This document shows, in pieces, positions 1,506-19,902 of a stretch of DNA of 30,641 nt. This DNA is from a virus, in IMG/VR virus record IMGVR_UViG_3300013286_000037, positions 1 to 30,641 of that record. One strand, given 5' to 3'. The translations under genes and the position numbers were made by a program. The number at the start of each line of letters is the position of its first letter. Within the stretch, counting starts at the first letter, position 1. Under the pieces are notes generated by a model that worked only from the letters and a program-made list of their open reading frames with translations, ran no database searches and had not been told where the DNA came from.

Positions 1506-3704
1506 TTAATGTATATTCTTAAAAGGGTTTCTGGAGGGCTTTTGCATACCTGGCTCACTACTCCTAGTTTGCCCCATATGTCTAAATGCTCCCCAATTTA
1601 ATTTACTAAATTTTTGGGAGTTAACCAAATTTGGATTGCTAACTTCTATACGTTTAGCAAAGCCTCTGTTAGCTTGTTGTACTTTTGCAAAGGCTACTAA
1701 AGCACAATATGCTACAATTCTATCCACGTTTAGGCCATCTCTATATGCTTGCATCTCTTTTAAAAGCATAGGATCTGGTATACGTTCTACACCATAAATG
1801 GTTTTTACTATCTCTCCATCTGGTAAAGTTTCATGGTCTAGTTCTTCTTTTAAAAATTCTATACCATAAGATAGTAAATTTCCTTTAAATAATGTACCAA
1901 CATTTTTCCAGCCATACTCTTGAAACACATTACGATTAGCTCCTATATCTTTTAAGAAGAGTATCATGTCTTTAGGAACTAAATACTTTTGTTTTTTCTT
2001 AGAGATCATATATTGTATAAATAAAGCTACGTTATTCTCCACTACTGTCCAGGCATTATACCATTCTATAAGGAGCTCTAGACGCTCGTGTGTTTTAACT
2101 ATATCATCAAAACGTCCACACCAGCTAGCTACAATACGATCTCTTTCTAATGTGTTCCCCACCTTACCATCTCCATCATCTCTTATTACTTCTATAGGAC
2201 TCTTGTATATGTATATAGAACATAATGAATCTGATGTTGTAGTTTTACCTTCTCCTACTGGATCCACTGAACCATAATACATTCCAAATGTAGGATTTTT
2301 ACAAGGTCTTTCATAAATACAAATAACTCCTTCTTTGTCTTCTGTCTTTTTAGATAGAGGAAATTCCATAATAGGAATCTTTCTAGATGGTTTATCTGTA
2401 ACCTTTCCCTCAGCGTTTCTATATAATTCTAGATACTCCACTGGATATTCTTTATCAGCTATTCTTTGTAACTGTTTGGAAACCAAGTGACTAGGAAACA
2501 CACTCGCTTTTCTTGTAGCAAATGCTTCTTCTATAGTACGTGGTTGCTGAGATATTGTTAACTGATAAGCTGCCGGATCAAGATCTTTTTTCATCTTTTC
2601 AAACTCAATATCTAATGCTGCTAATGCTTCTTTTACCAAAGAGTTTCCATACTGATCTATATAAGGAGGCATAGACCATTGTTCAGGAATAAATAATCCT
2701 GATATACCTAGTGTACCATTATTGTCTATAAGATTGGTGGGTACACCATAGAATCCATTTTCTTCTGGAGCTAATACATATTTCTTTAAAGGCTCACATT
2801 GATCTAGATCACCCACAGATCCTGCAGCTATAAATTGTCCTGTGATAAGATGACCAGATTTTAAAGCTGGTTTCATAAATCCATATGTATCATCCATTTT
2901 TGGAGCAATACCACCTTCCTCATGAAAGAAATAAGTCACAGGACCCCCAACACCATTTGTAGGATCTTTTTCAAATGAATATGAGTTAATAGTAGATTTT
3001 AATCCTCTATAAGTATCTCTACCTCCTATTCTCACTTTAATCTGTTGGTTCCATGCCCCCACCTTATCAGGTTCAGATGGTCTATACCATGCTGTATGCT
3101 CATTTAAAAAGTTTTTATATTCATTTAAAAACTTCCATGAACCTTTCTCATTGATATAATCTTTAAGACTAGCTCCTATTTTAAGAACAGCTCCTTCTTC
3201 AAATACCCATTGGTTAATAAACTTAGCCATATGAAAATAAGAAGATGCTATCTGACGTTTCTTTAAAATAATAGCATGTCTATAATGTAATTCTGCTAGA
3301 TGCTCATAAAGAGCCATGTGATATTGAGCATCTCTAACCTTAGCAAAGTCAAATCTTTTTTCTTCTTTATCATAAATGGGTAAAAAGTTTAACCACATAT
3401 AATAATCTCTAGAAATATACCATGTGTTTTCTTTACCATGATATATTACACCATTTCTACATTTAGATTTTTGACCATCCCAATAGTATATAAAGTCTTT
3501 AGTCTTTATAGGAGCAGAACAATAATATCCTTGCTTCTGAAACTTACGTCCTTCTTCATTAAAAATAAAACTAGTTTCATCAAAGTGATATTCACCAGGT
3601 TCTTTAAATAGAGGAACTAAAAAAGCTCTAAAATCTTCTAGAGTTTCAAATTCAGTTATGGACCATGTACCGTCATGGTTATATGTAGGTACAATTTTAT
3701 ACAA
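1506..3704 (-). CDS. terL: Terminase large subunit (TerL)
   Basis: 732 residues, the usual size for crAss-like TerL. It is the ATP-driven packaging motor with a C-terminal RNase H-fold nuclease that cuts the concatemer. Visible motifs: a deviant Walker A at about residues 147-155 (KKRQIASSY, no GKT), Walker B with catalytic Glu in VTYFFHEEGG near 257-266, and nuclease acidic residues D481 (GSVDPVGEG), E556 (VVENN) and D661 (NVDRIVAY). The N-terminal 100 residues are rich in W/Y/F, typical of this group. The start at 3704 overlaps the upstream gene by 8 nt. The gene is intact, with no intron or frameshift. Portal follows downstream, as expected for a packaging cluster. Confidence 0.93.
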   Translation of the reverse strand: MYKIVPTYNHDGTWSITEFETLEDFRAFLVPLFKEPGEYHFDETSFIFNEEGRKFQKQGYYCSAPIKTKDFIYYWDGQKSKCRNGVIYHGKENTWYISRDYYMWLNFLPIYDKEEKRFDFAKVRDAQYHMALYEHLAELHYRHAIILKKRQIASSYFHMAKFINQWVFEEGAVLKIGASLKDYINEKGSWKFLNEYKNFLNEHTAWYRPSEPDKVGAWNQQIKVRIGGRDTYRGLKSTINSYSFEKDPTNGVGGPVTYFFHEEGGIAPKMDDTYGFMKPALKSGHLITGQFIAAGSVGDLDQCEPLKKYVLAPEENGFYGVPTNLIDNNGTLGISGLFIPEQWSMPPYIDQYGNSLVKEALAALDIEFEKMKKDLDPAAYQLTISQQPRTIEEAFATRKASVFPSHLVSKQLQRIADKEYPVEYLELYRNAEGKVTDKPSRKIPIMEFPLSKKTEDKEGVICIYERPCKNPTFGMYYGSVDPVGEGKTTTSDSLCSIYIYKSPIEVIRDDGDGKVGNTLERDRIVASWCGRFDDIVKTHERLELLIEWYNAWTVVENNVALFIQYMISKKKQKYLVPKDMILFLKDIGANRNVFQEYGWKNVGTLFKGNLLSYGIEFLKEELDHETLPDGEIVKTIYGVERIPDPMLLKEMQAYRDGLNVDRIVAYCALVAFAKVQQANRGFAKRIEVSNPNLVNSQKFSKLNWGAFRHMGQTRSSEPGMQKPSRNPFKNIH

Positions 3705-9938: not shown

Positions 9939-10595
9939 TTATTTACCGTATTCTAATTCTAATATTTTACCTACTAAATCAGAACGGTGGTTTTCCTTAA
10001 GCTTAACCCATTTCACTTCTTCTAGTTTCTTAGACAGTTCTATAGCATAAGACAAGCCATTTACAGAACCATGGGGGTTAATATCCATTTGCTCATTATC
10101 ACCATTAATAATAATCTTACCTGTTTTACCTAGCCTAGTAAGAATAGCCAGCATCTCAGCCTTAGATAAGTTCTGTGCTTCCTCTACAATAAGAACATCA
10201 TCCACAGTCTTACCCCTAATAAACTGTACAGGATAAGCTAGAATTTTCTTCTCAGCCACAAGGTTCTCTATCTTCACCTTATCATAACACTTAATAAGGT
10301 TTTCCATAAAGGCTTCTAAATAAGGATTAAACTTGTCCTCTAAAGCCCCAGGTAAAAAACCCATAGAATTACCCACCTCTATAGTGGCCCTAGTAACAAA
10401 TACCTTGTCACATTCATCTTTAAACAAAAAGTCTAAAGCACACTGGGCAGATACTAAACTCTTACCACAACCTGCCCTACCTGTAATAATAACTATCTGG
10501 TTTTCCCTAATAAGACGCTTGGCTTCCTTCTGCTCATCATTAAGCTGAATGTTATATTTAATCTCATTCTTTCTAGTACGGTTAGACTCTTTCAT
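9939..10595 (-). CDS. PhoH-like P-loop ATPase
   Basis: 218 residues from the ATG at 10595; a longer reading with 35 extra residues is rejected because it runs through the preceding gene's end and has atypical composition. Walker A GRAGCGKS is at 39-46, Walker B with catalytic Glu in VLIVEEAQN at about 134-142, a sensor motif INGDNEQMD at 163-171, and an arginine-rich ENHRSD near 201-206. This is the PhoH core, related to SF1 helicases; phage PhoH proteins are common, with a proposed RNA or nucleotide-linked role. It is 4 nt from the 91-aa gene upstream. Its GC content looks higher than the neighbouring late genes. Confidence 0.9.
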   Translation of the reverse strand: MKESNRTRKNEIKYNIQLNDEQKEAKRLIRENQIVIITGRAGCGKSLVSAQCALDFLFKDECDKVFVTRATIEVGNSMGFLPGALEDKFNPYLEAFMENLIKCYDKVKIENLVAEKKILAYPVQFIRGKTVDDVLIVEEAQNLSKAEMLAILTRLGKTGKIIINGDNEQMDINPHGSVNGLSYAIELSKKLEEVKWVKLKENHRSDLVGKILELEYGK

Positions 10596-10599
10596 ATTA

Positions 10600-10875
10600 T
10601 TATTTTTGAAATGGTGTTTTATTCTCCTTACGCTTTTCCCTAGCTGTATACGCCATACTCTTATAACTAGTATGTAATGCTGCCAACCTACCCAACTCAT
10701 CCCTATGAGCCCATTGATGTTTGCTCTCTGCCCTAGTCTTCACATTCTCATAATACTTAAAAGCCTTAACCCCTTCCTCTAACTCCTCCTCTATATAAGC
10801 CACTATCAATTCATCTAAACTAGGTATATACACTAAGTCCCCAGTAGGAGATAATTCAATATTTTTTTCTTCCAT
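10600..10875 (-). CDS. Hypothetical 91-aa protein, promoter-proximal
   Basis: The start at 10875 (MEEKNIELS...) lies 15 nt from a TATCTTTG promoter box; an in-frame extension upstream would run through the promoter and C-runs and is rejected. The protein has an acidic helix (EEELEEGVKAFKYYENVK, about 31-48) and a basic C-terminus (TAREKRKENKTPFQK). It is probably the first protein of the leftward PhoH transcript. No family recognised. Confidence 0.65.
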   Translation of the reverse strand: MEEKNIELSPTGDLVYIPSLDELIVAYIEEELEEGVKAFKYYENVKTRAESKHQWAHRDELGRLAALHTSYKSMAYTAREKRKENKTPFQK

Positions 10876-10929: not shown

Positions 10930-11033
10930 CCATGGTTTTTTCCGTGTTAGAAGGTTAGGTGACCTACTACACAACAACTCCCCCTCTTAAAATTGGGCGG
11001 TATTGCCCCCTGTACCTGTAAATGATATTAATC

Positions 11034-11297
11034 ATGGCAACAAGATTCATTAAAGCTACCACCGGTGGCTTAATTGTAACTGACAAAGCAATTGAAACTG
11101 TAAAAGTAAAAATTGCTGGCGTAGAAAAAGAAGTACGCACGCAAGGCGGAATTATCGGCTTTATTGCAGTGAGTAATGCAAAAGCATTACCATTGAAAGC
11201 CGGTGATGCTGTACCCTTCCGTATTACGGATAAACCCGTAATTGACCTCTCGACTAAACGGCCTATACCAAACTTGTTTTGGGCGGACCCTGTGTAA
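11034..11297 (+). CDS. Hypothetical 87-aa beta-rich protein, first rightward gene
   Basis: ATG at 11034 (MATRFIKAT...), preferred to an ATG four codons upstream. The protein is rich in Val/Ile/Lys/Thr with alternating strand character and likely forms a small barrel; the pattern (IKATTGGLIVTDKAIETVKVKI) would suit an abundant nucleic-acid-binding protein, but no motif proves it. GC content (about 47%) and codon choice differ from the AT-rich plus-strand genes downstream. It is bounded by hairpins on the 3' side, so it is a monocistronic unit next to the control region. Confidence 0.65.
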   Translation: MATRFIKATTGGLIVTDKAIETVKVKIAGVEKEVRTQGGIIGFIAVSNAKALPLKAGDAVPFRITDKPVIDLSTKRPIPNLFWADPV

Positions 11298-11395: not shown

Positions 11396-11632
11396 ACTTG
11401 TTACAAGTTCCACAACTTTGTACGTTCCACGTGGAACATTACACGTTAAAGGCAGGCTATGTAAGTGGGAATCCACTTCTCTACAGTTTCTTGAATAGGT
11501 TACAGTCATCACATTCCACAAATTTTTGTGGCATTAGATGGCTATGATATAATTCCACATAACACATATATTTTCCATTAACCAAAATGCTATTATCAAT
11601 AAACAATATATATAGCATTAAATAACAATTAT
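11396..11632. other. Palindrome cluster and AT-rich tract, candidate origin/partition region
   Basis: This stretch has no convincing gene. Inverted repeats are at 11396-11408 (ACTTG-TTA-CAAGT), 11423-11438 (parS-like), 11463-11478 (AAGTGG-GAAT-CCACTT) and 11516-11531 (CCACAAA-TT-TTTGTGG). TTCCACA occurs three times in the same orientation at 11408, 11514 and 11553. An AT-rich stretch follows at about 11550-11632, with an 8-bp inverted repeat AATGCTAT/ATAGCATT. It lies near the switch between leftward and rightward transcription. Iterons, palindromes and an AT-rich tract together fit a replication origin or centromere; this is inference. Confidence 0.5.
11423..11438. promoter_or_regulatory. 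ParB parS-like palindrome
   Basis: CGTTCCACGTGGAACA matches the chromosomal parS consensus TGTTnCACGTGnAACA at all fixed positions except the first base. The 14-bp core is a perfect palindrome. No parA or parB gene is visible in this window, so binding by host ParB/Spo0J or an unseen phage protein would be needed. Confidence 0.6.
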
Positions 11633-11834: not shown

Positions 11835-12032
11835 ATGAATACAAGAACTAAAATCTCTGCTTGTTCTATTAGGATATCAGCAGTTGCTACACCTTATGGA
11901 TTTAAAACTATTGGTTCATTTCATAAGTTTCTTAAACAATGTAATCCTTGTGCTAAACTATACTTTGGTAATAGTCATGTTAGAGTGATTAGTATGTTGA
12001 AGATGGTGGAAAGAGAGTTTGAGAGTTTATAA
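11835..12032 (+). CDS. Hypothetical 65-aa protein
   Basis: Basic, Cys-containing protein (MNTRTKISACSIRISAVATPYG...) starting 20-30 nt after the previous terminator, with an A-rich context ACAAAACTTATTCAT before the ATG. The pattern GFKTIGSFHKFLKQCNPC suggests a compact helix-rich fold. Function unknown. Confidence 0.55.
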   Translation: MNTRTKISACSIRISAVATPYGFKTIGSFHKFLKQCNPCAKLYFGNSHVRVISMLKMVEREFESL

Positions 12033-17384: not shown

Positions 17385-17967
17385 GGGGGTGTATTGATTT
17401 GACAGCACTCTAAATGGTAGTATCACAAGCAAGCCTTGGAACGGGTAAACAAGTTCTAAACAATAACCGTAAAGAGTCAATCTGAGCGTGTTTCTGAAGG
17501 TGCCGCTATTATAGCAATGGCATTTTCTCGTGTAGCAGTAGCTGCATAAGGAAACGGGGTGGTAACAACCTGGCAACAGAAAGTTACAAAATCGTAAGGT
17601 ATTCTGATACTGACAGCTCAAAGGAGTGATGGGTGTGAAAGCAGAATAAATGACTACATCGTCCTAGCCTTACAAATGTTTTCTTAGTTATGTCAAAACT
17701 AAGTGGTGGCAAGTTGTACTTAACCGTATGATCCTAAAATTACTGATCAGTATATGTAAAGAAATGGCGTTTTGTAGATAAAACCGCTACCACGCTCCAA
17801 CAAGGCTAAAGTGAAGAACTCTATTCCTTAACGGTCCGGTCCATATACAGACTCAATTACGGTGCAAAGAGTGTTTGGGATCTTCCCAGCACTATTAGTA
17901 CTAAGCTTGTAACTAAATGGTATTATGATTTGTATGTTGGACGGGGGTTCGTAACCCCCCACCTCCA
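17385..17967 (+). ncRNA. ssrA: tmRNA (ssrA), unusually long
   Basis: Acceptor stem GGGGGTG (17385-17391) pairs with CACCTCC (17960-17966), one G-U. GATTTGACAGC follows as in tmRNA 5' domains. The T arm is GGGGG-TTCGTAA-CCCCC (17943-17959) after GGAC, and AAGCTTGTA near 17904-17912 matches the 3' domain motif. The coded 3' end is A-CTA, not CCA. A tag reading frame ends at TAA 17547-17549; from GCA at 17514 it gives AMAFSRVAVAA, whose end resembles ClpXP-type tags. Upstream GCC/GCT codons are alternative resume points. tmRNA rescues stalled ribosomes and tags products for proteolysis. At 583 nt it exceeds the usual 350-410, with the extra length after the tag. Confidence 0.85.
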
Positions 17968-17989
17968 CTAATTTTTTAAACTTAAAGTC

Positions 17990-19069: not shown

Positions 19070-19360
19070 ATGAACACAGCAGAACAAAATGCACTCAATC
19101 TTAGATTTATATATTATGCTTGTGATGCAGAAGATTTATTACCTATTGGGGCATCTAACACATGGGAAGGACTATTAGAAATAGTAGATGATTATATGGG
19201 TGCTAATGATAAACATAATCATTCAGGTAAAAGAATTAAATATGTTCCATTTGAAAGTAAATATCCCTCAGAGTTTGAAGGCACTATATATTATGAAACA
19301 CCTGAATCAAAATCTGTAAAAGTATATACAGTAGATTTTAATTATAAAAATAATCTATGA
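19070..19360 (+). CDS. Hypothetical 96-aa protein
   Basis: Acidic protein (MNTAEQNALNLRFIYYACDAE...) with DDYMGANDKHNHSGKRIKYVPFESKYPSEFEG in the middle, giving a strand/turn-rich fold. It joins the next gene by an ATGA overlap, so translation is coupled. No family recognised. Confidence 0.6.
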   Translation: MNTAEQNALNLRFIYYACDAEDLLPIGASNTWEGLLEIVDDYMGANDKHNHSGKRIKYVPFESKYPSEFEGTIYYETPESKSVKVYTVDFNYKNNL

Positions 19361-19902
19361 AAACCACATTAAACAGAATCAAAGAACATTCACCTTGCTC
19401 TGAAGGTTGGTCAAAGCTATTAACCTATTTAAACAAAACAGAAGCTGATAATGAACCATTAGACCTGCTTACTATTCTTGAATCAAATGGCGTAGAAGAT
19501 TGCTTATGGGCATTTAAATGTACAGACAACCATAATAGTATTTACAGGCATATTGCAGCAGATTTTGCGGAGTCAGTATTGCATATTTACGAATCAGATT
19601 ATCCTAATGATAATAGACCTAGACTAGCTATACAGGCTGCTAGAGATTATGACGATGGTAAAATAGATGACGCTGCTAGGGCTGCTAGGGCTGCTAGGTC
19701 TGCTGCTAGGTCTGCTGCTAGTGATGCTGCTTGGGCTGCTTGGGCTGCTTTGGCTGCTTTGGCTGCTGCTAGGGATGTTGCTAGGGATGTTGCTTGGGTT
19801 GCTAGGGTTGCTAGGGATGTTGCTTGGGATGCTGCTAGGGTTGCTGCTGTGGCTACTGAATTAGAGAAACAAAAAAAAATAATTATTAAGTGGTTATCAT
19901 AA
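19357..19902 (+). CDS. Imm5-like protein with Ala/Arg/Trp repeat tail (181 aa)
   Basis: The N-terminal half (RIKEHSPCSEGWSKLLTYL, and later AVDxA-type YPNDNRPRLAIQAARDYDDGK at about 85-106) matches what I remember of phage proteins annotated Imm5-like or putative immunity proteins. The second half, about 103-170, is a repeat of AARAARSAARDVAW units with positions alternating Ala, Arg, Trp and Val; such triplet-phased repeats would form a continuous helix. It overlaps the previous gene by 4 nt. Role unknown; proposed immunity annotations are not proven. Confidence 0.6.
   Translation: MKTTLNRIKEHSPCSEGWSKLLTYLNKTEADNEPLDLLTILESNGVEDCLWAFKCTDNHNSIYRHIAADFAESVLHIYESDYPNDNRPRLAIQAARDYDDGKIDDAARAARAARSAARSAASDAAWAAWAALAALAAARDVARDVAWVARVARDVAWDAARVAAVATELEKQKKIIIKWLS
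19670..19850 (+). repeat. Tandem GCTGCTAGG-type coding repeat
   Basis: Irregular tandem copies of 6- and 9-nt units (GCTGCTAGG, GCTGCTTGG, GATGTTGCTAGG) run through the Ala-rich coding region. All forward frames stay open, so other reading frames here are by-products. Slippage could change protein length in multiples of three without a frameshift. Confidence 0.85.

Follow-up and report, generated by a model that had tools for sequence, protein, structure and literature searches.

A parS-type element is real and under selection in the freshwater phage family to which the viral DNA analyzed here belongs. The copy from which the analysis started lies in a record of 30,641 nucleotides (hereafter the window), a 30.6-kb linear viral fragment. 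Judging from sequence comparison, the element is probably a genuine orphan parS, which would be read by the host's chromosomal ParB for segregation or maintenance of the phage or for organization of its genome.

A parS-like site between divergent gene arms

Bacteria use parS, a short DNA address with the consensus TGTTnCACGTGnAACA, for chromosome segregation. The initial annotation had described a near-perfect match to it with a perfect 14-bp palindromic core at 11423–11438, and both statements hold, as the palindrome is exact; its count of 11 matches at 12 fixed positions does not, since the consensus has 14 fixed positions, of which 13 are matched. No other match with two or fewer mismatches was found in the 30,641-base record, and 100 Markov simulations of the window yielded no match with one mismatch or less. 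When the viral contigs were searched with the exact 26-mer around the site, no second contig was returned. The consensus itself is matched exactly in several relatives. The neighbouring 87-aa protein yielded no relatives. As proposed in the same annotation, the site belongs to a phage control region: it is intergenic, flanked on one side by a leftward arm (phoH, terminase) and on the other by small genes of early type that form a rightward arm. The features referred to below are the following.

11423–11438, no strand: parS-like palindrome CGTTCCACGTGGAACA, with the core GTTCCACGTGGAAC at 11424–11437
11407–11413, plus strand: extra parS half-site GTTCCAC, 17 bp from the left half of the palindrome (putative role)
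11514–11559, plus strand: two further TTCCACA words (at 11514 and 11553), the second in a leader stretch common to the relative G001
11626, no strand: minimum of the window's cumulative GC skew, some 190 bp from the site; putatively an origin or a point of divergence
9939–10700, minus strand: phoH (PF02562), the nearest leftward-arm gene of known family, used for recruiting relatives
1506–3704, minus strand: terminase large subunit (phrog_6681), in the leftward arm
11022–11297, plus strand: small gene of 91 amino acids between the site and the leftward arm, for which no family match or relatives were found
11835–12032, plus strand: rightward-arm small gene with 78% identity to its G001 counterpart; the control-region synteny is anchored on it

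Five of the window's 13 TTCCAC words are concentrated within 220 bp at the site, where 0.06 would be expected. Elsewhere in the record, a tmRNA gene (17385–17970, plus strand; RF00023, 52 bits, E 2e-19) spans 586 nt compared to the 374 nt of the model and thus carries a large internal insertion, and a protein with a long Ala-rich repeat (ARAARAARSAARSAASDAAWAAW...) is encoded at 19357–19902 (plus strand).

The site recurs at the control region of related phages

Around 240 related loci were recruited by a PhoH search and two terminase searches. The terminase of the window shares about 25% identity with those of crAss-like and Flavobacterium phages, and the terminase type represented by G001 shares 39% with Leptolyngbya phage Lbo-JY46 and 33% with Cellulophaga phage phi4:1. 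The nearest named relative of the G001-type terminase (39%), PP438436.1 (L206), was isolated on the cyanobacterium Leptolyngbya and is closer to this terminase than the Cellulophaga phages are. Clostridiales were considered as a host and rejected, as this assignment came from a single 7-kb contig (L205) in a Clostridiales MAG, probably a misbinned phage contig; the terminase of L205 is 73% identical to that of G001.

Conservation in related phages, on which the initial annotation had made its reading depend, was indeed observed: many relatives have the site at the corresponding control region, and others have it at a different place. The control-region site is common to the window, G001, G002, L005, L008 and many more loci. 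According to protein synteny, the sites of G001 and G002 lie in the same divergent region as that of the window, despite terminases that share only about 30% identity with that of the window. The near-complete genome G002 carries two sites, one of which is the window's identical 16-mer and lies downstream of the first small gene, as it does in the window. In L005, L006 and L008 the site is directly upstream of phoH, and in at least 20 G001-type loci a parS-like palindrome with unlike flanks is found 2.2–3.2 kb upstream of the terminase gene. The skew minimum falls within 0.43 kb of the site in 21 of 22 loci with a control-region site, and the distance is 226 bp in G055 and 56 bp in G073, both genomes of 114 kb. 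By the location of the skew minimum, the control-region element is a switch-point site, at an origin that is itself putative.

Variation in the arms of the control-region sites is mostly confined to the two 'n' positions of parS. In around 10 lineages the central CG has drifted (to ACAT, ATGT, ACAA, ATAA or ATAT) with the arms GTTCC/GGAAC kept, which calls for caution, as a strict parS would not predict such drift. These drifted-centre sites may be decaying, may be weaker ParB sites, or may be an element read by another protein. One of their carriers, L165, is sister in the terminase tree to a clade using a site in the capsid gene.

The last of these options leads to a distinctly doubtful alternative, in which the element would serve as an operator, its arms GTTCC/GGAAC being recognized by a transcription regulator of phage or host that controls the divergent promoters. 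The position between divergent arms in many genomes, the arms that outlast the centre in about 10 lineages and the HTH protein adjoining the site in G001 are all consistent with this. However, an operator would hardly serve a promoter at the sites that lie after the portal gene or within the capsid, SPFH-like and scaffold-like genes, and the agreement of the consensus with parS, which extends to the free positions, holds across phages with terminases of only about 30% identity. The drifting centre would also suit an RNA hairpin with a 4-nt loop, since GTTYC-N4-GRAAC can pair and the centre drifts as a loop would. We regard this as very improbable, however, because the z-scores from folding give a mixed picture (−0.7 to −3.1), the arms of L126, L128 and L197 contain mismatches without compensation, and the position of the site in the transcript is not fixed.

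Not every relative carries the site: none was found in some near-complete genomes (G014, G057, G066), and the window's own terminase clade has few control-region sites (window, L005, L006, L008/L258) and coding-region matches that vary in the third base of a Ser codon. Nearly all sites are located within about 12 kb of the terminase gene, a closeness that a partition site would not need. With around one copy per genome, always near the terminase, the element could be thought of as a packaging (pac) site or another single-copy site that the phage's own machinery recognizes. This is improbable, however, as it leaves the identity with bacterial parS unexplained, is hard to reconcile with phages that share the site but have highly diverged terminases, and does not fit a site that relocates over about 20 kb.

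The parS core exceeds its expected frequency

In 1.85 Mb surrounding the terminase in 160 loci, the exact core GTTNCACGTGNAAC was counted 55 times, whereas 179 palindromes of permuted letters occur on average 0.11 times in the same 1.85 Mb (maximum 8), i.e., about 500 times more rarely. Many of the 55 occurrences are inherited copies and not independent events, a kinship that the controls share. None of the 160 loci had two exact cores. Across all viral contigs, TGTTNCACGTGNAACA gave at least 120 matches versus 38 stretches for a control of the same composition and the same centre, and among the matches listed, 47 of 50 records with TGTTNCACGTGNAACA had no ParB_N match, many of these records being fragments. 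A 6.3-kb viral contig (L340) contains five exact parS matches within 0.8 kb.

A probable role for the host's ParB

Among 19 records, many of which are close to complete, none yielded ParA or an above-cut-off ParB_N; ParB_N was detected in a Bacteroides control genome. Only G065 and G071 encode a weak, below-cut-off ParB_N-like protein (L307:1045–1776 and L306:1045–1851, respectively, both on the minus strand), similar to phrog_12305 ('ParB-like partition protein') and about 4 kb from the parS-like site, in which no canonical ParB HTH was recognized. An HTH_ParB match in G048 (above the family cut-off together with its frame neighbours) was discarded as a ParB candidate, as it reads as a GIY-YIG/HTH homing-type protein. 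The remark in the initial annotation that no parAB was in view is therefore upheld in near-complete relatives, the two weak ParB_N-like proteins excepted, and no complete ParABS with parA and parB on the phage was detected above the cut-off in the 19 records, the window itself being a fragment.

Because these phages have no detectable ParAB pair, the likely reader of the site is the host's chromosomal ParB, which would also be the simplest reader, the sequence being that used by bacteria in general. Host ParB could load at the single phage site, spread over the neighbouring phage DNA as a CTP-gated clamp, and link the genome of the phage to the host's ParA, perhaps also to SMC. The outcome would be segregation or maintenance of an extrachromosomal phage genome, or its organization around the putative origin; segregation is the leading, albeit unproven, benefit. 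The same reader might provide a different benefit if host ParB, by spreading, silenced phage genes in the vicinity or set their timing, or if the site were a decoy that titrates ParB. P. aeruginosa ParB is known to repress promoters adjoining parS (PMC5521831), and all sites are near packaging and structural genes, which would suit either version. Yet a single copy per genome would titrate ParB poorly, and a site that moves by up to 20 kb is awkward for the silencing of one promoter, so that we hold this alternative to be unlikely, if worth serious attention.

Comparison with known systems places the element between several of them. With the chromosomal parS of bacterial ParABS systems it shares the consensus TGTTnCACGTGnAACA, for the most part the free positions and, in genomes with a control-region site, a location at a putative origin; however, those sites form a cluster, whereas the element described here, known from sequence, is a single site in a phage without parAB and has a drifting central CG in some lineages. 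In SGI1, the closest precedent, parS-like sites bind the ParB of the IncC plasmid and thereby hijack the plasmid's ParABS (PMC10954446). In both cases a mobile element carries a centromere mimic alone and would use the ParB of another replicon, but in the case of SGI1 the other replicon is a plasmid, for which binding was demonstrated, while here the element is a phage and the presumed partner is the ParB of the host chromosome. Phage-plasmids such as P1 and N15 likewise rely on partition to maintain an extrachromosomal phage, yet they bring their own partition genes (PMC11652158), in contrast to the phages studied here, in which no ParA and no above-cut-off ParB was detected. A phage-plasmid nature has also been suggested for the prototypic crAssphage (PMC11652158), and the terminases described above have a distant crAss-like kinship. 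A literature search that covered few subscription journals returned no description of a phage parS without a phage ParB. If our reading is correct, phages would use the bacterial chromosome segregation machine through 16 bp of DNA alone, and persistence in dividing cells, which is suspected for crAss-like phages, would become accessible to phages that have neither an integrase nor partition genes.

Alternative placements and codon choice in the capsid gene

Where the control-region site is missing, the core is often present at another place in the genome, namely in SPFH-like, major capsid or scaffold-like genes, after the portal gene (G048) or in the gene just before the terminase gene. The sites in the capsid gene have the sequence GGTTACACGTGAAACA and are about 11 kb from the GC-skew minimum, the putative origin. 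The peptide encoded there, VTRET, is invariant in 73 of 73 genomes examined, and the parS codons are GTT ACA CGT GAA AC, whereas genomes with a control-region or SPFH-gene site use non-parS codons. Indeed, the parS codons were present in none of 29 genomes with a control-region or SPFH-gene site as opposed to 15 of 28 without one (Fisher 1.7e-6, kinship ignored). On the terminase tree the codon state changed around six times, and among independent pairs 4–5 against 0 showed the alternation (median p 0.06), so that the tree-corrected alternation between a control-region or SPFH-gene site and capsid parS codons is no more than suggestive. Several of the hypotheses considered in this analysis were examined once the data had been seen. 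In addition, the third base of the last Thr codon of VTRET, which corresponds to parS position 16 and lies outside the core that defines the capsid codon state, was A in 16/20 versus 3/53 genomes when split by that state, even though ACA makes up only 23–29% of Thr codons elsewhere in the capsid gene.

We had at first regarded all matches in coding sequence as mere peptide coincidence and revised this for the capsid gene after the codon comparison. Coincidence still accounts for much of the matches in the scaffold-like and SPFH-like genes, and in the scaffold-like gene the evidence for selection at the DNA level is weaker, as the third base of the Ser codon takes all four letters. Extended to the whole data set, this would make the element a chance palindrome supplemented by protein-coding coincidences, in line with the peptides V-x-R-x-T and FHVK, which spell parS-like DNA, and with the variable Ser codon. 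Considering the rarity of permuted palindromes, the conservation of the intergenic sites and the synonymous codon shifts, chance is extremely improbable as a general explanation.

Under the reading of the element as an orphan parS served by host ParB, a broader proposition, for and against which we see an even balance, is that a large phage family parasitizes host ParABS via an orphan centromere of which each genome keeps about one copy, and that a decayed origin-side site would be replaced by a new parS elsewhere, even by synonymous codons of the capsid gene; orphan parS may then be common in phages. For a DNA site that lies within coding sequence, the codon-level alternation amounts to an unusual natural experiment. 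L158, L167 and L191, which carry the capsid-gene site, also contain a second conserved element, TGTTTCATGTGCAACA and variants thereof, which follows 'gcctaatgttgcctcagc' at about −3.9 to −4.0 kb from the terminase gene.
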